NCBI RefSeq assembly: GCF_038443385.1
Contig: NZ_CP151726.1
Location: forward strand, 2,232,001 to 2,296,000
Length of the DNA stretch: 64,000 bases
DNA from: Stieleria varia
GTDB taxonomy: Bacteria; Planctomycetota; Planctomycetia; Pirellulales; Pirellulaceae
Direction of reading: 5' to 3'
Position 1 is the stretch's first letter; every line of letters begins with the position of its first letter. The notes under the pieces were generated by a model. That model saw only the letters and a list, made by a program, of their open reading frames with translations. It did not search any database and was not told where the DNA came from. Made by a program: the position numbers and the translations under genes. Positions 35,641-45,238 of this stretch are shown piece by piece.

Positions 35641-35876
35641 GTTCTCGTATCAGCCAACCCAGGCTGGATCTGCGAGCCCGCGTTTGACCCGTAGCCAAAG
35701 GCGCAGGCGGCAGCGGCGATTGACACTGCGGTGCAAGCCGTTTGGTAGTGGCTCCTGCGCCTTCGGCTGCGGGGCCGACAATGTCCCACAGCTTCGCCAA
35801 GAGATCGCGCCAGCGAGTATCATGGCTGGATTGCTGTAACGACTCCCACCGGACACGTTCCCACCAACGTCTTGCG

Positions 35877-38303
35877 ATGCACACCTTCCCGCCGCCGCTC
35901 GCCCTCCGCTTTTTGATCTCATGCACGTTTCTCTTCGGCATGCGTGATTGCGTCGCCGAAGTTCCCGTGTTCATCCAACAACACTGCGCTGACTGTCACG
36001 ACGGCGGTGAAAGCGAAGGGGGCTTTGAGTTTACACAGCTCAATGGCCCCCTGGCCGACGAAGCCGTCTTTGCCAAATGGGAACGCGTTTTTGATCGTAC
36101 CGAACAACACGAGATGCCCCCAGCGGATGCCGTCCAACCCAGTCAAGCAGAGCGTGATGTGTTCTTGGATGAGTTACGCAAGCCGCTCGCCGAAGCTCAC
36201 GCGAAAGAAAAGGCGACTGTCTTTCGACGTTTGAATCGTCAAGAGTACGAGAACACCGTCAACGACCTCTTTGGGACACATCTGGATTTGATCGATCGCT
36301 TGCCAGAGGACGGTCGAGCAGATGAATTCGATAACGTCGGCGCCGCGCTAAACCTGTCATCGATACAGCTCGATGCCTATCTACAAACGGCTGAGCTGAT
36401 TCTCGACGAGGCGATCGAGAAACACTTGGAGAAACCATCGATCGAGACCATCCGCGCCAATTACGCCGACATGCGCGGTGCCGAAAAATTCTTGGGCAAT
36501 CAATGGCTTCATCGCGATGACGGCGCGGTTGTGTTCTTTCAAAGACTCGGATACCCATCCGGCATGCTGCGTGAAGCGTCACCCAGGCGAGCTGGTTGGT
36601 ACGACGTGAGCGTGACGGGCTACGCGTTCCAGTCCGACGAACCGGTGACCTTTTCGATCGAAGCAACCACGTTTGCTCGCGGGGCGGAAAAACAACACTA
36701 CGGATTCCGTCAGTTCCTGCCCGGTGACCCGCAAACAGTAACGCTGCGAGCCTGGATTCCTGAACGCTACATGATCGAACTGACGCCGTGGGGAATCTAT
36801 GACCCGGATTATTTGATCAAAAAGAATGGGATTTCGGCGTACAGCCGACCTGGCTTGGCGATCCAGCACGTCGAGTTGCGTGGTCCGATCGTTGAAACCT
36901 TTCCTTCCCGCGGCCATCAACTGTTGTTCGCTGAGTTACCACGAACAGAAATCGTTCCGAGAAATCCCGCCGACCGCAAGAAGTCATGGTACGTCCCCAA
37001 GTTTGAAATCCAAGAGGGTGCGGAGACCAGTTCAAGTGTCGACCAAACACTGATCCGCGTCGCGACCGCCCTCTATCGTCGTCCTGTTGGGCCGACTGAG
37101 ATCACTGCGTATCGGAAACTATTCGATGCGGAACACGACTCCGGAGAATCGATCGAGTCGGCATTGCGCACGGCGGTTTCGGCGATGCTGTGTTCCACCG
37201 ATTTTTTATTCTTCTCTGAATCGGGACCATGGCTTGATCACCATGCCATCGCCAACCGCCTGTCGTATTTCTTAAATCGATCGTGCCCAGATGCCGAACT
37301 GCGTGCTGCAGCAGACAGTGGCAAACTGGCGACCGATCCCGAGTTGCTCAAGCAGCAGACACAACGACTTCTGCTGCATCCACACGCATCGAGATTCATC
37401 AACGACTATTGTGACGCTTGGCTGGGCCTACGCGATCTTGATTTCACGACACCCGATGCGAAGCTGTTTCCTGAGTACGACGTTTATCTCAAGAGTTCGA
37501 TGCGAGATGAAACACGAGCATTCCTTTCACACATGATCAGCAACAATTTGCCGATCAGAAATCTGATCCGCAGTGACTTTGCGATGCTGAACGAGCGGCT
37601 CGCCCGGCACTACGGTATCGAGGGCGTCGATGGCCCCGAAATTCGTCCCGTCAAGCTGCCCGCTGACAGCTTGCGAGGCGGCGTGTTGAGCCAAGCGAGT
37701 ATTCTGAAGATCACCGCGAACGGAACCAACACGTCGCCCGTGTTGCGAGGCGTCTGGGTGAACGAACGGATTCTGGGGCGTCACCCCCAGCCTCCACCTC
37801 CTGGCGTGCCAGGAGTGGAACCCGATATTCGCGGCGCACAAACGCTGCGTCAACAACTTGCGTTGCACCGCGACTCGGACAGTTGCCGTGCCTGTCACAA
37901 CATGATCGATCCACCAGGATTCGCATTGGAATGTTTTGATCCTGTGGGAGGCTTCCGCGATTTTTATCGCACCCTCGGTGGCGGCGGCGAACGGGTGGAT
38001 CGCAAGGTCGAAGGACGCAAGGTGGTCTATCAGCAGGGGTTGCCAGTGGACGCGTCGGGAACCACTCCTGAGGGATTTGCGTTCAGCGGGTTCAATGATT
38101 TTCGCGAGCACGTGGCGTCCGACGAAGATCAAATCGCGGAAGTGGTCGCGACGAAACTGTTGACGTTTGCCACCGGTCGCGAAATGGGATTTTCCGATCG
38201 CCAACCCATCGCCGACATCGTCGAGCGTTCACGCAAGTCCGGCCATGGGATCGCCGACCTGATCGTGTACATCACCCAAAGCCCGCTGTTCCGCCAGAAA
38301 TAG
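35877..38303 (+). CDS. Exported DUF1587/DUF1592/DUF1588/DUF1585 cytochrome-type protein
   Basis: An 808-residue exported protein typical of planctomycetes. The signal peptide is at residues 1-27. The planctomycete cytochrome (PSCyt1) site CADCHDGG is near residue 37, DUF1587 follows (TVFRRLNRQEYENTVNDLFG near 112), then DUF1592 and DUF1588 (GGVLSQASILKITANGTNTSP and NERILGRHPQPPPPGVPGVE near 600-650) with a second CRACH heme site near 670. DUF1585 closes the protein (KLLTFATGREMGFSDR). The start is the ATG at 35877 just before the signal peptide; the frame is open from 35742. The usual partner gene (DUF1552) is absent next door. The role is unknown, presumably periplasmic electron transfer or oxidation. 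Confidence 0.9.
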   Translation: MHTFPPPLALRFLISCTFLFGMRDCVAEVPVFIQQHCADCHDGGESEGGFEFTQLNGPLADEAVFAKWERVFDRTEQHEMPPADAVQPSQAERDVFLDELRKPLAEAHAKEKATVFRRLNRQEYENTVNDLFGTHLDLIDRLPEDGRADEFDNVGAALNLSSIQLDAYLQTAELILDEAIEKHLEKPSIETIRANYADMRGAEKFLGNQWLHRDDGAVVFFQRLGYPSGMLREASPRRAGWYDVSVTGYAFQSDEPVTFSIEATTFARGAEKQHYGFRQFLPGDPQTVTLRAWIPERYMIELTPWGIYDPDYLIKKNGISAYSRPGLAIQHVELRGPIVETFPSRGHQLLFAELPRTEIVPRNPADRKKSWYVPKFEIQEGAETSSSVDQTLIRVATALYRRPVGPTEITAYRKLFDAEHDSGESIESALRTAVSAMLCSTDFLFFSESGPWLDHHAIANRLSYFLNRSCPDAELRAAADSGKLATDPELLKQQTQRLLLHPHASRFINDYCDAWLGLRDLDFTTPDAKLFPEYDVYLKSSMRDETRAFLSHMISNNLPIRNLIRSDFAMLNERLARHYGIEGVDGPEIRPVKLPADSLRGGVLSQASILKITANGTNTSPVLRGVWVNERILGRHPQPPPPGVPGVEPDIRGAQTLRQQLALHRDSDSCRACHNMIDPPGFALECFDPVGGFRDFYRTLGGGGERVDRKVEGRKVVYQQGLPVDASGTTPEGFAFSGFNDFREHVASDEDQIAEVVATKLLTFATGREMGFSDRQPIADIVERSRKSGHGIADLIVYITQSPLFRQK

Positions 38304-38394: not shown

Positions 38395-38958
38395 TCATTG
38401 GCTGATGCGATCATCGGGATCGACATGATTGGGGCTCACCTCCAAATCAGGGATCAAGATGGGAGCGGCATCGATCCCTTCTGCATCCATCAGTTTGACA
38501 ATTCTTTCCAATGCCTTCAGCAGACCAAGGCATTCGATTGGATCGAGAGTCTCCAGACGCGTCAAGAATTGTTCGTGCAATGGGGTGGGCAAACTATTGA
38601 GCCGTTGCCTGCCTTTATCCGTCAGCGACACACAGACTCGTCGACGATCCTTGCTATTTCGTTCCCTCGCGACGTATCCGTCTCCGTCCAGCTTGTCCAG
38701 GATGCGTGACACGGTCGGAGCCGAAAGTTGTACCGCATGGGCGATCATGGCGACGGTGACTTCCGTATTTTCTGGAAATTCCGAGACCGCTTTCAAGCAC
38801 AGCATTTGCGGGACACTCACACCGCCATGCTTGCCCACATTGCGCGAGTGGTCAGACGTACGACGAATGATTCGTCGAATCGCTCGTAAGATTTGAAACC
38901 CGATCGAATTGTCCTGTCGCAATTCGATCTCGGAACCATCCAATTCAGTAGGTTTCAT
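38395..38958 (-). CDS. MarR-family transcriptional regulator, ect operon
   Basis: A 187-residue winged-helix regulator. The recognition region is VTVAMIAHAVQLSAPTVSRILDKLDGDGYVARERNSKDRRRVCVSLTDKGR near residues 68-118. MarR-type regulators (EctR, CosR) control ectoine genes in several proteobacteria, usually from a separate or upstream gene; here it is the last gene of the same operon, 12 bp after the marC-like gene. Direct regulation of the ect promoter is an inference from location. It reads about 25 residues past the usual MarR end. Confidence 0.85.
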   Translation of the reverse strand: MKPTELDGSEIELRQDNSIGFQILRAIRRIIRRTSDHSRNVGKHGGVSVPQMLCLKAVSEFPENTEVTVAMIAHAVQLSAPTVSRILDKLDGDGYVARERNSKDRRRVCVSLTDKGRQRLNSLPTPLHEQFLTRLETLDPIECLGLLKALERIVKLMDAEGIDAAPILIPDLEVSPNHVDPDDRISQ

Positions 38959-38970
38959 GATACGAATGCA

Positions 38971-39588
38971 CTAATTTAACGGACGCCACAGATCGATGCC
39001 TTTGAGAATCATGTCGACCGCAATTGTACCGATAATCAGGGCGGATGCACGCCCGATAGCTTCAAGATACCGCTGAAGCAGTTGCTCGTTACGGAGTTTG
39101 ACATAGTTAAAAAGAAACTTAACCGCGATCAACAGCAGGCAACTGATGATTAGCGATACGGCGATTGCCAACCATGCAAAACCGACTGGGAGTTTCAGGC
39201 CAACCAAGACGCTCGCGCTGACGGTTCCCGGGCCGATCATGAACGGCATGGCGATGGATCCGCTCAAGTGAGTTGCGTCGCCCCGCAGCTCACCGAGCAT
39301 TTGGGCACCAAAAACGATGTAGCGCACCGCGATGACAAAGAACACGAGGCCGCCAAAAATCAGGAATGCGGCAAAGCGAACTTGGATGACATCGACAAAG
39401 AAGCGTTCTCCTGCCCAAGCAAAGAACGCAAACGCAGCGGCACTGATTAGGAATGCTCTCGAAATGACATTGATGAACGTTCGTGAGTCCAGGCTTGCCA
39501 TGACGTCGTGCAGATAGACACTCATCAACAGAGGGTTGAACAGCACTAGCATCAGCAGCATGGAATCGAAAAAGGCCTTGACGTCCAT
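38971..39588 (-). CDS. MarC-family integral membrane protein
   Basis: A 205-residue membrane protein with six likely helices. Family patterns are SMLLMLVLFNPLLMSVYL at the N-terminus, MPFMIGPGTVSASVLVGL near residue 120 and IIGTIAVDMILKGI near the C-terminus. The start ATG at 39588 follows the methyltransferase stop by 5 bp. MarC proteins have no proven substrate; in this position it could export or take up an ectoine compound or respond to osmotic stress, but that is only inference. Confidence 0.8.
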   Translation of the reverse strand: MDVKAFFDSMLLMLVLFNPLLMSVYLHDVMASLDSRTFINVISRAFLISAAAFAFFAWAGERFFVDVIQVRFAAFLIFGGLVFFVIAVRYIVFGAQMLGELRGDATHLSGSIAMPFMIGPGTVSASVLVGLKLPVGFAWLAIAVSLIISCLLLIAVKFLFNYVKLRNEQLLQRYLEAIGRASALIIGTIAVDMILKGIDLWRPLN

Positions 39589-39593
39589 TGAGA

Positions 39594-40388
39594 TCAGGCC
39601 TTTTCGAAAATGGCGACGTCGTACTGATGCAGGAACGGGAACCACTGGTCTCCATCAAACTGTTCCGTCAGCTCATCAACGGTCCGCGTGATTTCGTCTG
39701 CATCGAGGGCAGAGAACACCGACCATGTGTCGCGGTCTCGAATGCCATCGAGCCACTCCGAAACAGGCGTGCTGACGTATTTTTGCCAACGAGTGATCTC
39801 TACCTCCCGCCAGTGAGAAACTTCCCGCATGGACCGCAGCAACTCATCGGCAGACGTGTACAGAGAATGCCATTTATTCGCCGCCAACCGTCCGACCGGA
39901 ACGCAATCATGATCCGGCGGCGTTCGAACGACCATGGCATACCTACCGCCCGGGGCGAGCGAGTCACAGATTCCCTGATGAATCTCCGTCAACGTCTCGC
40001 TCGCAAAGTGATGGGCTGTGTCTTTGGTGTAGATCAGGTCAAAGTGTCCGTTCGGAGCATACTGGGCAAATTCGATCGCGCTGCTACAGGTCGCATCAAT
40101 ATTGTCGTGCTCCAGTGCCGCTTCCAGTAGCGAGGCAACCGGTTCATAGCAAACCACGGGCTCGCTCGCACTGAGCTTTTTGCCCAACAAAGACGCAAAG
40201 ATGCACGTGCCAGCGCCGATCTCAGCAATGCGTTGGGCGGAAGGATGGATCGCGGCAATGCGACTGAGAATCCATGTGGTGAAGTCGTTGTCGGCTTGCG
40301 TGAAGTGTTTGCTGCCGTAGTCCTTTCCAACATCCGCGTAGTGCTGCAGTTGCCAATCGTGGTCGGTGGAGACAGGGATTTTTGTCAT
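39594..40388 (-). CDS. SAM-dependent methyltransferase of the ect operon
   Basis: A 264-residue class I methyltransferase. Motif I is RIAEIGAGTCIFASLLG near residue 53, the acidic strand-2 end CYEPVASLLEAAL near 79, the post-motif DLIYTKDTAHHFAS near 116, then SLAPGGRYAMVV. The start ATG overlaps the ectD stop by four bases (ATGA), so it is translated with the hydroxylase. I know of no standard step in ectoine synthesis that needs a methyltransferase. It may modify ectoine, hydroxyectoine or another compatible solute (for example a betaine). Confidence 0.85.
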   Translation of the reverse strand: MTKIPVSTDHDWQLQHYADVGKDYGSKHFTQADNDFTTWILSRIAAIHPSAQRIAEIGAGTCIFASLLGKKLSASEPVVCYEPVASLLEAALEHDNIDATCSSAIEFAQYAPNGHFDLIYTKDTAHHFASETLTEIHQGICDSLAPGGRYAMVVRTPPDHDCVPVGRLAANKWHSLYTSADELLRSMREVSHWREVEITRWQKYVSTPVSEWLDGIRDRDTWSVFSALDADEITRTVDELTEQFDGDQWFPFLHQYDVAIFEKA

Positions 40389-41281
40389 CGAGAGTCCAAA
40401 TGCAAGGCGACGGGTTCAATATTTCGTTCCGCGAGATACTCGGGACGCGGCGGACGATCGCAGAACGGTTCTTTCACCACGTTCTCGACGCTGTTGTAAA
40501 CCGCGAACAGATTCACACGAGGCATCGGGCTGAGATTGCCGTTGGAGCCATGCATGGTGTTGCAGTCAAAGAAAACCACGGATCCCGGCGGGCCTTTGGG
40601 CGCGATGATCTCGCGTCCATGGAGCAGCGTTTCAAGTGCTTCTCGTGACGGAACACCAAACTCCTGGCGACGCAAAGACTGTTCATAGTGATTCTCCGGC
40701 GTTTTGCCTGAACATCGGATGAACGTCTCGTGCGATCCAGGGATCAACATCAATGGACCGTTGAACTCATGGCTCTCGGTGAGAAACACGGACATGCTGA
40801 GCGCCCGCATCCGTGGCATCCCGTCTTCGACATGCCAGGTTTCAAAATCGGAATGCCAAAAGAACTCTTTGCCGTCCATCGGTGGCTTGTAGTTGACCCG
40901 CGACTGATGGATGTACACCTCCGTTCCGATCAACTGTTTTGCTCGGTCCAGTAGTCTCTCATCAGCAAAGAGTCGTTGGAACATGTCGCTGATCCGATGC
41001 AATCGAAAAATCGATCGGACAGTGTCACATCCCGGTTCGCGAACAATCCCCGGTCGTGACGGCGGCCAGTTCTCCGCAAGCGACTTCGCTTCTGCAAGCA
41101 TCTCATCGACTTCGTCCTGAGAGAACAGGCTCTGAGCAAACAGAAAACCGTCGTGAGCATAATTCCATACTTCGTCGGTCGTCAGCGGCCCTGGGCAGTC
41201 CGACGCGGTGGGATCGACTCGCGGAGCAGCCTCCCAGGTGTCGGAGGTTCGTGAATAGTAGGGGTCGATTGATTCGCTCAT
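40385..41281 (-). CDS. ectD: Ectoine hydroxylase (Fe(II)/2-oxoglutarate dioxygenase)
   Basis: A 298-residue EctD that hydroxylates ectoine to 5-hydroxyectoine. The diagnostic block FFWHSDFETWHVEDGMP near residue 144 contains the first His and Asp iron ligands, and LIPGSHETF near 187 region leads to the later part of the site. YIHQSRVNYKPPMDGKEF and RMRALSMSVFL are also as expected. It follows ectC by 83 bp and overlaps the methyltransferase. The presence of EctD implies the cell makes hydroxyectoine as well as ectoine. Confidence 0.95.
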   Translation of the reverse strand: MSESIDPYYSRTSDTWEAAPRVDPTASDCPGPLTTDEVWNYAHDGFLFAQSLFSQDEVDEMLAEAKSLAENWPPSRPGIVREPGCDTVRSIFRLHRISDMFQRLFADERLLDRAKQLIGTEVYIHQSRVNYKPPMDGKEFFWHSDFETWHVEDGMPRMRALSMSVFLTESHEFNGPLMLIPGSHETFIRCSGKTPENHYEQSLRRQEFGVPSREALETLLHGREIIAPKGPPGSVVFFDCNTMHGSNGNLSPMPRVNLFAVYNSVENVVKEPFCDRPPRPEYLAERNIEPVALHLDSR

Positions 41282-41364
41282 TGTTCTTTGTTTTGCCTGT
41301 TACCTTGCTCTTTGCATTTGGGCAAGCAGTTGCTCGCCCAGTCCGTCACTCCGTCCGCTACTGA

Positions 41365-41748
41365 TTACTCCAACAGCGGATAGACGCCGTTCTCATCATG
41401 CGTCTCCGGCCCCACAATCGGAGGATTGAATACACAGATCATCCGAAGCTGTTCTTCTGCAATCAGGATGTGATGTTCATTCCCGCTGAGGGCATACATG
41501 GTTCCCGGTTCGATGGCGAACTCTTGGTCGTTACTCAAGTCCTTTAACCGACCTTTTCCTTCGATGCAGTACACTGCCTCGAGGTGGTTCTGGTACTCCA
41601 TCTTGGTCGTCGTCCCCGCGTACAAGATGGTGTCGTGTAGAGAGAATCCCATCCCGTCTGCCTTGAGCAACAGCCTGCGACTGACCCACGTTTCCGCGTT
41701 CGTTTCGCGATCCGTTCCGGAGATTTCACCGAGTGTTCTGACAATCAT
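41365..41748 (-). CDS. ectC: L-ectoine synthase
   Basis: A 127-residue cupin, the usual EctC length, that cyclises N-gamma-acetyl-diaminobutyrate to ectoine. MIVRTLGEISGTDRET at the start, WVSRRLLLKADGMGFSLHDTILYAGTTTKMEYQNHLEAVYCIEGKG in the middle with the metal-binding Glu, Tyr and His, and NEHHILIAEEQLRMICVFNPP at the end are all EctC signatures. It lies 18 bp after ectB. Confidence 0.97.
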   Translation of the reverse strand: MIVRTLGEISGTDRETNAETWVSRRLLLKADGMGFSLHDTILYAGTTTKMEYQNHLEAVYCIEGKGRLKDLSNDQEFAIEPGTMYALSGNEHHILIAEEQLRMICVFNPPIVGPETHDENGVYPLLE

Positions 41749-41766
41749 GTCCGTATTGATCTCCGA

Positions 41767-43071
41767 TTAGTTGACACACACAGGAACGTTCGTGACCGCA
41801 GCGGTGCTTTCACCGAGGATCTTCAATCCGCGATTCAGCAGTTCATCGGCGATTGTCAACGGAGGCAACGTCTTGATGACTTCGTCATTGGGACCCGCCG
41901 TTTCAATGATCAGGCCGCGTTTGAAGGCTTCCTTGGAGATGGCAGATGCGATCGAATGATCCGCAAACTCGATTCCCTGAATCATTCCCCGGCCACGAAC
42001 CACGGCATCGTGGTCGACGGCAATATCCAACAAGGCATCTCGTACGGTACGCGCGTTACGATTGACCTTTCGCGTCAGCTCATCATCTTGCCAATACTCT
42101 CGCAGTGCCGCTGTCGCCGTCACGAAGGCGGCGTTGTGTCCACGAAACGTTCCGTTGTGTTCCCCGGGCGAAAAGACATCCAGTTCCGGTTTCATCAACG
42201 TCAACGCCATCGGTAGCCCGTAGCCTGAGATGGATTTCGACAAACAGATGATGTCCGGCTGGATGCTGAACGGCTCAAAGCTAAAGAAGGGTCCCGTGCG
42301 ACCACATCCAACCTGGATGTCATCAATGATCAACAAGACTTTGTATCGGTTGGCCAACTCAGCCAATGCCTCCAACCAACCGCGAGTGCCGATGTTGACT
42401 CCACCCTCGGCCTGGACCGTTTCCAGAATGAATGCCGCTGGCAAATCCATTCCGCTGCTGGAGTCCATCAGGTAGCGTTCCAGCGCCGCGATGGTGTCCG
42501 TTTCTGTTCCCAGAAAATCGCAAAACGGCATATGAGTGACGTTGTTAAGCGGCACGCCCGCCCCAGCCCGCTTGCCGCTGTTGCCGGTCAAGGCCAGCGA
42601 GCCAAGCGTCATTCCATGAAACCCGTTGGTGAATGAAACCACGTTGTGTCGCCCCGTGACTTTACGGGCAAGCTTCAGTGCCGACTCCACCGCGTTGGTG
42701 CCCGTTGGACCCGGAAACATGATCTTGTAGGACATGTCGCGTGGCCGCAGGATGACTTCGTCAAACGTCTGCAGAAATGTCCGCTTGGCACTGGTTGACA
42801 TGTCCAGTGCATGTACCACGCCGTCGCCAGCCAAATACTCGATCAACGCGGATTTCAGGGCGGGATTGTTGTGCCCATAGCTCAACGCACCGGCGCCTGC
42901 AAAGAAGTCGATGAACTCCTCGCCCTCTTCGTTGACAAGCGTTGCACCTCGTGCGCTCGAAAAAACCGTGGGGAAACTGCGGCAATATCCGCGAACGTTG
43001 CTTTCCAGTCGATCAAAGGTATCCAAGTTTTTACTTCCATTGAGTTGCTGTGACGCCACAAAAGGCTCCAC
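41767..43071 (-). CDS. ectB: Diaminobutyrate--2-oxoglutarate aminotransferase
   Basis: A 434-residue class III aminotransferase that turns aspartate-4-semialdehyde into L-2,4-diaminobutyrate, the first step of the ectoine path. The EctB-type start (FDRLESNVRGYCRSFPTVF), GPTGTNAVESALKLAR near residue 124, DDIQVGCGRTG near 247, and the PLP-lysine block ICLSKSISGYGLPMAL near 270 are seen. HNGTFRGHNAAFVTA closes the core. It follows ectA by 48 bp. No ask_ect aspartokinase gene is in the cluster. Confidence 0.97.
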   Translation of the reverse strand: MEPFVASQQLNGSKNLDTFDRLESNVRGYCRSFPTVFSSARGATLVNEEGEEFIDFFAGAGALSYGHNNPALKSALIEYLAGDGVVHALDMSTSAKRTFLQTFDEVILRPRDMSYKIMFPGPTGTNAVESALKLARKVTGRHNVVSFTNGFHGMTLGSLALTGNSGKRAGAGVPLNNVTHMPFCDFLGTETDTIAALERYLMDSSSGMDLPAAFILETVQAEGGVNIGTRGWLEALAELANRYKVLLIIDDIQVGCGRTGPFFSFEPFSIQPDIICLSKSISGYGLPMALTLMKPELDVFSPGEHNGTFRGHNAAFVTATAALREYWQDDELTRKVNRNARTVRDALLDIAVDHDAVVRGRGMIQGIEFADHSIASAISKEAFKRGLIIETAGPNDEVIKTLPPLTIADELLNRGLKILGESTAAVTNVPVCVN

Positions 43072-43119
43072 AGGAAAAAAGGCGGGGGGCCTTACGAAAC
43101 GGCCAACCCCTCGTGATGC

Positions 43120-43662
43120 TCATTCGCCCGGACTGCACCGAACAAATGGGCCGATCCGTATACGAGGCTCCGCTTCGTGTTCACTGGACTCGTGTTCGCT
43201 GCAGGGAAAGTCAGCCACACTGAAACCATCGTGAGGATGATCGGTGATCGGCAGATCAAGCGATCGTGCCAGAGATTCGAAAAGCAGCCGTGATGCTGTG
43301 TTGGTCGAAGCAATGGTCGCTTCAATGGCCGTCAGCTCACCTTGACCACATCGGCTTACCAACTCTCTTAGCAATGCCGAGGCGACTCCTCTCCGCTTCA
43401 CTTCACCAGCCACGCCGATTTGCCAGACGAACAGGACGCTAGGGTCCCGAGGCATTCGGTAGCCAGAGACGAAGCCGACCACAGCCTCGTTCTGACACGC
43501 CACCAAGCAGGTGTCGCGGAAATCTCGGCAGAGAAGCAAATAGAGGTAGGCCGAATTCGTGTCCAGGACGCCCGAATTCTGCACCAAACGCCAGATTTGC
43601 GATGCGTCATTCGTTTCAGGGGCACGTATCTCGATGCTCAGCTTGTCTGCCTTGGTGGAAAT
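43120..43662 (-). CDS. ectA: L-2,4-diaminobutyrate acetyltransferase (probable ATT start)
   Basis: A GNAT-fold acetyltransferase that acetylates diaminobutyrate with acetyl-CoA. GVLDTNSAYLYLLLCRDFRDTC, GFVSGYRMP, LFVWQIGVAGEVKRRGVASALL and the C-terminal IRIGPF are typical of EctA. The first ATG/GTG/TTG codon in frame is at 43587, which would cut off the conserved start of the fold. Upstream the frame stays open to 43704, and the sequence IRAPETNDASQIWRLVQN is a normal EctA beginning. An ATT at 43660-43662 sits 6 bp after AAAGAGG, giving a 180-residue protein of usual EctA length. A CTG at 43641 is the main alternative. First gene of the ect operon. Confidence 0.85.
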   Translation of the reverse strand: MSTKADKLSIEIRAPETNDASQIWRLVQNSGVLDTNSAYLYLLLCRDFRDTCLVACQNEAVVGFVSGYRMPRDPSVLFVWQIGVAGEVKRRGVASALLRELVSRCGQGELTAIEATIASTNTASRLLFESLARSLDLPITDHPHDGFSVADFPCSEHESSEHEAEPRIRIGPFVRCSPGE

Positions 43663-43752
43663 GTCGTGCCTCTTTATCGAAAAACCGCGACCCTGCGACC
43701 GGTTTCAGTCAGTGCTGTACCAATCGTTGCCTATGAAATCATTGCTCATGAA

Positions 43753-43780
43753 AGTATATTGCGGTGGATCTCCACGTCAA
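43753..43780 (-). promoter_or_regulatory. Candidate sigma70-type promoter of the ect operon
   Basis: Reading the minus strand, TTGACG (43780-43775) and TATACT (43758-43753) are separated by 16 bp, close to the E. coli consensus. A short inverted repeat GTGG-AGAT-CCAC lies between the two hexamers and is a candidate operator, perhaps for the MarR regulator encoded at the operon end. The predicted RNA would have a leader of about 85 bases before the ectA ATT. Confidence 0.55.
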
Positions 43781-43813: not shown

Positions 43814-45238
43814 ATGACAACTGTCATTGTCAGCTTTCTTTTCTTTCTCGCCGTTTTCGTCGTGATTGGGGTCTCATCCGCTCTGGCTCGCAAAAACACG
43901 ACGGATGACTACCTGCTTGCGGGTCGCGATGTGCCTCCTTGGCTTGCCGCGCTTTCGGCAGTGGCCACCAATAACAGTGGATTTATGTTCATCGGCCAAA
44001 TCGCCTACACCTACCGGGTCGGAATCGAATCCGTCTGGATGATGATTGGCTGGGTACTCGGGGACCTAGCGGCTTGGTGGCTGGTCCATCCACGGGTCAG
44101 ACGAGAGTCGGAAAACATGAATGTGGCAACCGTTCCGGCTCTTCTAGGGACCACTCGGGACGGCGAAAAACGGATCATCATCATTTTGGGCGGTCTGATG
44201 ACTTTCATCTTGCTGGGAGTCTACGCAGCGGCTCAGCTGAAAGCCGGCAGCGCGGCGCTGCAGACCCTGTTCGGCTGGCAGCCGCAGGTAGGTGCCGTGA
44301 TCGGCGCCATCATTGTCGTGCTTTACTGCTTTTCAGGCGGAATCCGTGCATCCATCTGGACCGATGCCGCACAATCCTTTGTCATGATCTTGGCCATGGG
44401 GGCTCTGCTGATCGCTGCGAGCTTGGAAGTCGGGTCGCCGAGGGATGTTTGGAACAATCTGCAATCGCAAGACCCCGACTTGGTCGGCTGGTTTCCCACG
44501 GATCTGAAATTTGGTTTTGCGATGTATTTGCTGGGAATGACTTTCGGCGGATTTGGGGCAATCGGCCAACCGCATATCCTCGTTCGTTTCATGGCCATCC
44601 GGTCCGTCGACCAACTGCAGAGGGCAAAGTGGATTTATTTCCTCTGGTTCATTCCATTCTTTATCGCCAGCATTGCTGTCGGCCTCTACGCACGAGCGTA
44701 CATGCCGGATCTGCTCTCCATCCCGCTAACCGAGGGACTCACTGAGGCACAAGCAACAGAGTTGGCGATGCCGGAGATGGCGAAGAGACTGCTGCCCGAT
44801 GGGCTGATCGGACTGACATTAGCCGGACTATTCGCAGCAACGATGTCCACTGCCGATTCGCAAATCCTGGTCTGTTCGGGCGCGATTACTCAGGACATTA
44901 ACCCAAAGTGGAAGAGCTCGTACCTCGCATCCAAGATTGCCACGCTTGCCGTGACTGGATTGGCGCTAAGCGTCGCCCTCTTCGCAGGCCAGGGAGTGTT
45001 CGCACTCGTTCTCATTGCTTGGTCCGCTCTGGGAGCCGGACTCGGACCTCCTTTGTTGCTGCGATTGCTGGGAGTAAACCTTTCATCGCTGACCATTTGC
45101 TTGATGATGACAGCAGGTGTAACAACGGTGGTCGCGTGGAACATGATCGGATACGACGGTGATGTCTTCAAACTATTCCCGGGAATGGTGGCCTCGTTCC
45201 TGATGTGGCCGGTGGGCAATCTGTTTCGTAGAACGTGA
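43814..45238 (+). CDS. Sodium:solute symporter (SSS family)
   Basis: A 474-residue transporter with about 13 membrane segments. TTDDYLLAGRDVPPWLAALSAVATNNSGFMFIG near residue 29 matches the first two helices of PutP-type symporters with the sodium site, and QPHILVRFMAIRS near 255 and GLFAATMSTADSQILVCSGAITQDI near 337 are the core signatures. Probable substrates include proline, ectoine or another osmolyte. It is divergent from the ect operon over about 150 bp that contain the ect promoter, so uptake and synthesis of osmolytes may be co-controlled. Confidence 0.9.
   Translation: MTTVIVSFLFFLAVFVVIGVSSALARKNTTDDYLLAGRDVPPWLAALSAVATNNSGFMFIGQIAYTYRVGIESVWMMIGWVLGDLAAWWLVHPRVRRESENMNVATVPALLGTTRDGEKRIIIILGGLMTFILLGVYAAAQLKAGSAALQTLFGWQPQVGAVIGAIIVVLYCFSGGIRASIWTDAAQSFVMILAMGALLIAASLEVGSPRDVWNNLQSQDPDLVGWFPTDLKFGFAMYLLGMTFGGFGAIGQPHILVRFMAIRSVDQLQRAKWIYFLWFIPFFIASIAVGLYARAYMPDLLSIPLTEGLTEAQATELAMPEMAKRLLPDGLIGLTLAGLFAATMSTADSQILVCSGAITQDINPKWKSSYLASKIATLAVTGLALSVALFAGQGVFALVLIAWSALGAGLGPPLLLRLLGVNLSSLTICLMMTAGVTTVVAWNMIGYDGDVFKLFPGMVASFLMWPVGNLFRRT

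Follow-up and report, generated by a model that had tools for sequence, protein, structure and literature searches.

Ectoine clusters of Planctomycetota are reported to combine ectABC(D) with a MarR-type regulator, EctR, and an importer of the sodium:solute symporter (SSS) family (PMC13342039), and the cluster of Stieleria varia raises the question of what a methyltransferase and a MarC-type membrane protein are doing within such a set. The cluster lies in the window, the 64,000-nucleotide stretch analyzed here, which is part of a 9.72 Mb single-contig planctomycete genome, and it runs along the minus strand in the order ectA-ectB-ectC-ectD-methyltransferase (MT)-marC-marR. The reading preferred here, held with about even confidence, is that it forms an ectoine/hydroxyectoine module in which marC and the MT gene have been inserted between ectD and ectR, that MarC moves ectoines or other osmolytes, most likely outward, and that EctR represses the unit.

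EctA, EctB, EctC and EctD all score above curated NCBIfam cut-offs (Table 1), and their genes are adjacent and co-oriented, as expected of an ectoine/hydroxyectoine biosynthesis operon. The initial annotation had named all seven genes in this order and on this strand, and domain matches confirm each of them. Intergenic distances are 48 bp (ectA-ectB), 18 bp (ectB-ectC), 83 bp (ectC-ectD), -4 bp (ectD-MT), 5 bp (MT-marC) and 12 bp (marC-marR), with the ATG at 39588 taken as the marC start; the last three values reproduce those given earlier. The description of the genes as following one another without a break holds from ectD onward and fails upstream, because the gap between ectC and ectD amounts to 83 bp. 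An SSS symporter gene divergent from ectA, absent from that annotation, is a further member of the module. EctC was found in only one of 14 genomes of the genus, that of the window, and the module may have been acquired by horizontal transfer.

The window matches the surveyed Planctomycetota clusters in having ectABCD, a MarR-type EctR and an SSS importer, and differs from them in adding MarC and a methyltransferase, neither of which a search of the survey's main text shows in an ect cluster (PMC13342039). The survey dates from 2026 and covers type strains of planctomycetes, 163 in all; as far as its main text goes, it gives Stieleria varia as the only ect-bearing strain of Pirellulaceae with an EctI-type symporter (PMC13342039).

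A MarC subfamily linked to osmolyte genes

The MarC of the window shares with the MarC/NAAT family (Escherichia coli MarC and YchE, Thermococcus SnatA) a score above the PF01914 cut-off, whereas it falls far under the NCBIfam cut-offs for NAAT and YhgN (25.2 against 99.2 bits for TIGR00427), which marks it as belonging to a distant subfamily. Across ect-bearing genomes, members of this subfamily reach 42-76 bits with PF01914, compared with 148-179 for canonical MarC; canonical copies occupy a separate, fully supported side of the MarC tree, and the subfamily often stands beside osmolyte genes. These scores and this tree led to rejection of the idea that the window encodes an ordinary housekeeping MarC.

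Among 36 ect-bearing planctomycete genomes, the subfamily occurs in 22, and in 14 of the 36 its gene lies less than 6 kb from ectC (G000, G202, G231, G262, G364, G384, G390, G437, G493, G516, G520, G566, G574 and G597). These linked cases represent seven genera in four families, eight of them coming from the single genus g48, so that the 36 genomes are not independent. Two additional PF01914 matches in G574 (one of 93.5 bits, the other a fragment) were not counted as subfamily. The canonical MarC genes of 13 of the 36 genomes are separated from ect by more than 0.8 Mb or lie on a different contig. Outside this set, in the locus L211 of genome G032, ectCBA run in the opposite direction to, and away from, ABC importer genes (ehu) and marC.

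Co-occurrence was assessed in a phylum draw of 392 genomes, taken as one set for the EctC and MarC counts. EctC matched strongly in 23 of them, or 25 when the weak matches of G351 and G439 are included, both of which were counted as ect-negative. With a profile (A3) built from ect-linked MarC, the subfamily was found in 24 genomes, 16 of which also have ectC, at a distance below 6 kb in eight. It is present in 16 of the 23 genomes with ectC and in 8 of the remaining 369 (Fisher p 1.4e-17); counted by genus, which leaves kinship above that rank in the comparison, the figures are 9 of 13 ect genera and 8 of 254 others (p 9e-10).

The arrangements at these loci are varied, and the gene often abuts those of ABC, TRAP or SSS importers. 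It follows genes for a solute-binding protein, two permeases and an ATPase after a 7-base gap (L048), ABC genes named by eye (L056) or a symporter gene (L042), and it lies inside a TRAP set in the order dctQ, dctM, marC, dctP (L086). Elsewhere marC lies some 3 kb past ectD with a MarR gene immediately behind it (L057), stands between ectABCD and a symporter gene in an acidobacterial metagenome-assembled genome (MAG; L109), or, in a burkholderial MAG (L119), is transcribed divergently from ectA. Beyond ectoine loci, all eight records with a MarC match in a plasmid collection are from Acinetobacter, where 64% of the query aligns at about 50% identity. Four of the eight neighborhoods were opened, one of them unannotated, and in all three annotated ones a choline transporter gene directly precedes marC. 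The same subfamily is found here directly behind a compatible-solute importer gene, with choline/glycine betaine in place of ectoine; a literature search combining MarC with Acinetobacter, choline, osmotic and betaine returned nothing.

The MarC tree comprises 37 rows, including four of the eight copies from genus g48 and leaving out those of G407, G445, G057 and G321. The window copy groups (99/99) with two copies of family f7 that adjoin TRAP and ect genes, and the label linked or unlinked changes at least five times on well supported branches. That one membrane protein is repeatedly linked to genes for making osmolytes, and also to osmolyte importers of unrelated types, suggests a part in moving osmolytes, and export is favored because an importer is already encoded in the clusters. 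Within the wider family, E. coli MarC and YchE have been assigned to the neutral amino acid transporters, and a mutant E. coli MarC is reported to take up threonine (PMC12003319). On the linkage, MarC is read as a compatible-solute transporter and probably an exporter, which would carry ectoine and hydroxyectoine, or osmolytes generally, over the inner membrane, most likely outward, and could act as a controlled leak counteracting the importer encoded beside it. A broader proposal, tentative and distinctly less probable than the one made for the window, is that the subfamily is the sought exporter of compatible solutes that operates independently of mechanosensitive channels, recruited repeatedly to ectoine synthesis operons, to ectoine importer operons of three unrelated types and to a choline/glycine betaine locus, and that it would release osmolyte so as to balance uptake.

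The main rival concerns direction: instead of exporting ectoine, MarC would import it or assist the importers. The abutment of marC on importer genes of three kinds, and its place inside the TRAP operon of L086, are consistent with such a role, as is the uptake reported for the mutant E. coli MarC (PMC12003319). The counterpoint is an argument from arrangement only: an importer gene is already present in the clusters examined, and marC of the window lies in the synthesis operon, apart from the symporter gene. Import is regarded as doubtful.

Several observations weigh against a role of MarC in osmolyte export. In eight of the 22 genomes with the subfamily its gene is not near ect, being either far away on the same contig (G210, G238, G356, G441, G445) or on another contig (G407, G236, G237), and the subfamily is lacking in 14 of the 36 ect genomes, including four of the same family (G031, G396, G508, G512). 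Eight ect-negative planctomycetes carry it with no osmolyte gene recognized nearby. Within the sequence covered, it is visible in only two of the best 80 EctD loci (L109 and L119), and in none of the nearest relatives of the window among them. Two gammaproteobacterial copies are unlinked, one of them beside a serine dehydratase-like gene, and a fold search with the predicted MarC structure gave no clear relative. Among 274 genomes from the class of L119, the subfamily occurs in three at E 1e-20, the L119 genome itself and those with the two unlinked copies just named. A PDB sequence search with MarC returned a single match, a flagellin-motif chain at E 0.038.

Two further observations concern individual copies. 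The gammaproteobacterial gene beside the serine dehydratase-like gene, the latter named by eye (L238, 7828-9986), hints at amino acid transport, and the copy of G057 (L206, L212) has four TGA codons in its matched stretch, possibly reflecting a decayed gene.

Nearest relatives and a probable insertion

Relatives of the cluster were collected by an EctD search from which the best 80 loci were kept out of a longer match list, with open reading frames (ORFs) called by simple scripts; several MAG contigs end near the ect cluster, and absence there means absence within the sequence covered. The EctD of L094 is 81% identical to that of the window, and the two pair in the EctD tree with support of only 85/65, inside an eight-row clade that is itself firmly supported (100/99). 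In six of these relatives (L094, L095, L096, L097, L098 and L103), a MarR-type gene directly follows ectD, with neither MT nor marC between them. The L096 contig begins inside ectB, and the other five carry the divergent symporter gene. The genomes of L094, L097 and L103, which are MAGs of unstated completeness, likewise gave no match to the MarC subfamily, and no MT directly follows ectD in any of the seven other rows of the clade.

As marR stands directly after ectD in the nearest relatives, MT and marC look like an insertion, and the simplest reading is that they were gained in the lineage of the window. The alternative that the MT was already present in the ancestor of this group of ect clusters was rejected, as it needs several losses in the EctD tree. 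Separately, in the Rubripirellula MAG locus L103 (2723-5291), ectB and ectD are each split across two frames, through either decay or assembly error.

An insertion could also have brought in passengers without any role in ectoine metabolism, and the absence of MT and marC from the nearest relatives, together with the fact that most ect clusters manage without them, would suit this explanation. It is nonetheless considered very unlikely, given the tight spacing, the intact marR behind the two genes and GC contents at third codon positions of 0.64 and 0.65 for MT and marC, like those of neighboring genes, as well as the position of the window MarC in the tree next to ect-linked copies from a different family (99/99) and the co-occurrence of MarC with ectC.

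The methyltransferase

The MT belongs to the class I SAM-dependent enzymes, exceeding the Pfam cut-offs by a few bits (30.5 against 27 for Methyltransf_23, 29.8 against 27 for Methyltransf_25, and a similar margin for Methyltransf_11). It matches no curated NCBIfam family at E 0.001, and eight PDB sequences match its core only (E 4e-6 to 0.003); its predicted structure (pLDDT 39) was unusable. No relatives were found in viral contigs.

The initial annotation had proposed that this enzyme yields a methylated ectoine or hydroxyectoine and that MarC transports the product. Besides the overlap of ectD and MT at an ATGA, the proposal draws on a comparison of 296 genomes of the order, 36 of which have an MT match. 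The best non-self match (G041, E 3.6e-10) spans residues 15-258 of 264; the next in length reaches from 27 to 205, and most are confined to the core. This best match belongs to Planctomycetales bacterium 10988 (CP043547.1; L099), where the MT begins 36 bp after ectD, and the motifs K-[DE]-T-x-H-H and P-P-x-x-H occur both in it and in the window MT. A scan with 32 seeds (E 1e-5; ORFs of at least 140 residues) covered 116 ect loci other than the window, some of them duplicates, and the 10988 MT was the sole one less than 1.5 kb from an ect gene; a different MT lies 1.6 kb away, behind marR, in L094. The position after ectD in both genomes is a hint, no more, that the enzyme acts in connection with hydroxyectoine, which it may methylate.

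The remaining comparisons speak against a methylated product. The two MTs are only 21% identical, compared with 75% for EctB, 75% for EctC, 69% for EctD and 79% for the symporter (EctA, 48%). The 10988 MT is nearer to MTs on actinomycete plasmids (32-34%), whereas the window MT is 25% identical to the same three records and no closer to that of 10988, so that two separate gains are likelier, each enzyme apparently having been recruited on its own out of a single broad family. No osmolyte context was recognized in the plasmid neighborhoods of the actinomycete MTs. The initial annotation had itself counted absence of the extra genes beside ect in all close relatives, together with a lack of co-transcription, against its proposal, and this is borne out in part, as no MT comes after ectD in the relatives whose EctD is closest.

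The proposal of a methylated ectoine is weakly supported, through the position of the best match after an ectD, and is judged unlikely. Its transporter component is supported in a wider form, MarC being tied to ect clusters as such; specificity for a methylated product does not stand, because MarC is linked to ect clusters without any MT. A literature search on names of methylated ectoines gave homoectoine as the sole term among the matches listed. A MarC-subfamily gene is also followed, 138 bp on, by another class I methyltransferase-like gene in G042 (L214, 8603-10126).

Regulation, neighboring features and significance

The earlier view of MarR as regulator of the unit is in keeping with the known EctR/CosR type. 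By family and by position directly after ectD in the nearest relatives, the window protein fits EctR, and it would repress the unit from a promoter before ectA. A promoter-like site and a palindrome-like element, the latter a possible operator, recur at the matching place in L094, L097 and L103. Since promoter-like sites in the scan as a whole are not above chance (4 found, 3.1 expected), the case for this promoter depends on that recurrence. The symporter is EctI-like by its SSS family and its position; a symporter gene occupies the corresponding divergent position in L094, L095, L097, L098, L099 and L103.

No in-frame ATG, GTG or TTG precedes the conserved domain of EctA, and AAAGAGG stands six bases before an ATT at 43662, which is probably the start codon. 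The matching place of this region (43662-43675, minus strand) is also ATT in L094 and L103, after GGAG or GAGG, and ATG in L097; if conserved, the AUU start may serve to adjust EctA levels. On the other side of the operon, convergent with marR, the gene at 35742-38303 (plus strand) encodes a large protein of planctomycete type in which PSD and cytochrome c domains are recognized.

Table 1. Features of the ectoine module in the window and related MarC genes of Acinetobacter
Feature	Coordinates	Strand	Basis
ectA, diaminobutyrate acetyltransferase	43120..43662	-	TIGR02406, 149.5 bits (cut-off 120.6); probable ATT start at 43662
ectB, diaminobutyrate-2-oxoglutarate transaminase	41767..43071	-	TIGR02407, 629.2 bits (cut-off 552.2); GTG start
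ectC, ectoine synthase	41365..41748	-	PF06339 above cut-off; PRK13290, 189.2 (128)
ectD, ectoine 5-hydroxylase	40385..41281	-	TIGR02408, 339.2 bits (cut-off 336.5)
MT, class I SAM-dependent methyltransferase	39594..40388	-	Pfam Methyltransf_23/25/11; 4-bp ATGA overlap with ectD
marC, MarC-type membrane protein of osmolyte-linked subfamily, candidate ectoine exporter	38971..39588	-	PF01914, 43.2 bits (cut-off 23.9); linkage, co-occurrence, tree
marR, EctR-like regulator	38395..38958	-	PF12802, 44.5 (cut-off 27); directly after ectD in L094-L098 and L103
SSS symporter, EctI-like importer, divergent from ectA	43814..45238	+	PF00474, 210 bits
Promoter-like TTGACG-16-TATACT upstream of ectA	43753..43780	-	Like elements at same place in L094, L097, L103
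Palindrome-like element just past -10 box, possible EctR operator	43722..43742	-	Kept in L094, L097, L103
Acinetobacter MarC-family genes	L268 3803-4420; L269 3812-4420; L270 3803-4417		Directly after choline transporter gene

The individual parts of this module are already known. What seems new is the setting of MT and marC into an ect operon and the link between MarC and ect, the latter of which may have been noted before. A literature search pairing ectoine with "MarC family" returned nothing; it does not cover Czech et al. 2022, which may contain the link. To judge by its title, that work deals with importers, exporters and MscS-type channels encoded beside ect, and so with efflux parts in that position.

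The export of compatible solutes is the wider issue to which this locus speaks. Halomonas elongata lacking its four channels is reported still to export about 80% of its ectoine by an unknown route (PMC7174268), hydroxyectoine to leave E. coli independently of channels (PMC4955205), and the carrier for ectoine export, a target for industrial secretion, is called unidentified (PMC9453808). For this channel-independent exit, described as unknown in the texts cited, MarC is a testable candidate derived from genomic context; a methylated hydroxyectoine, if true, would be a new natural osmolyte.

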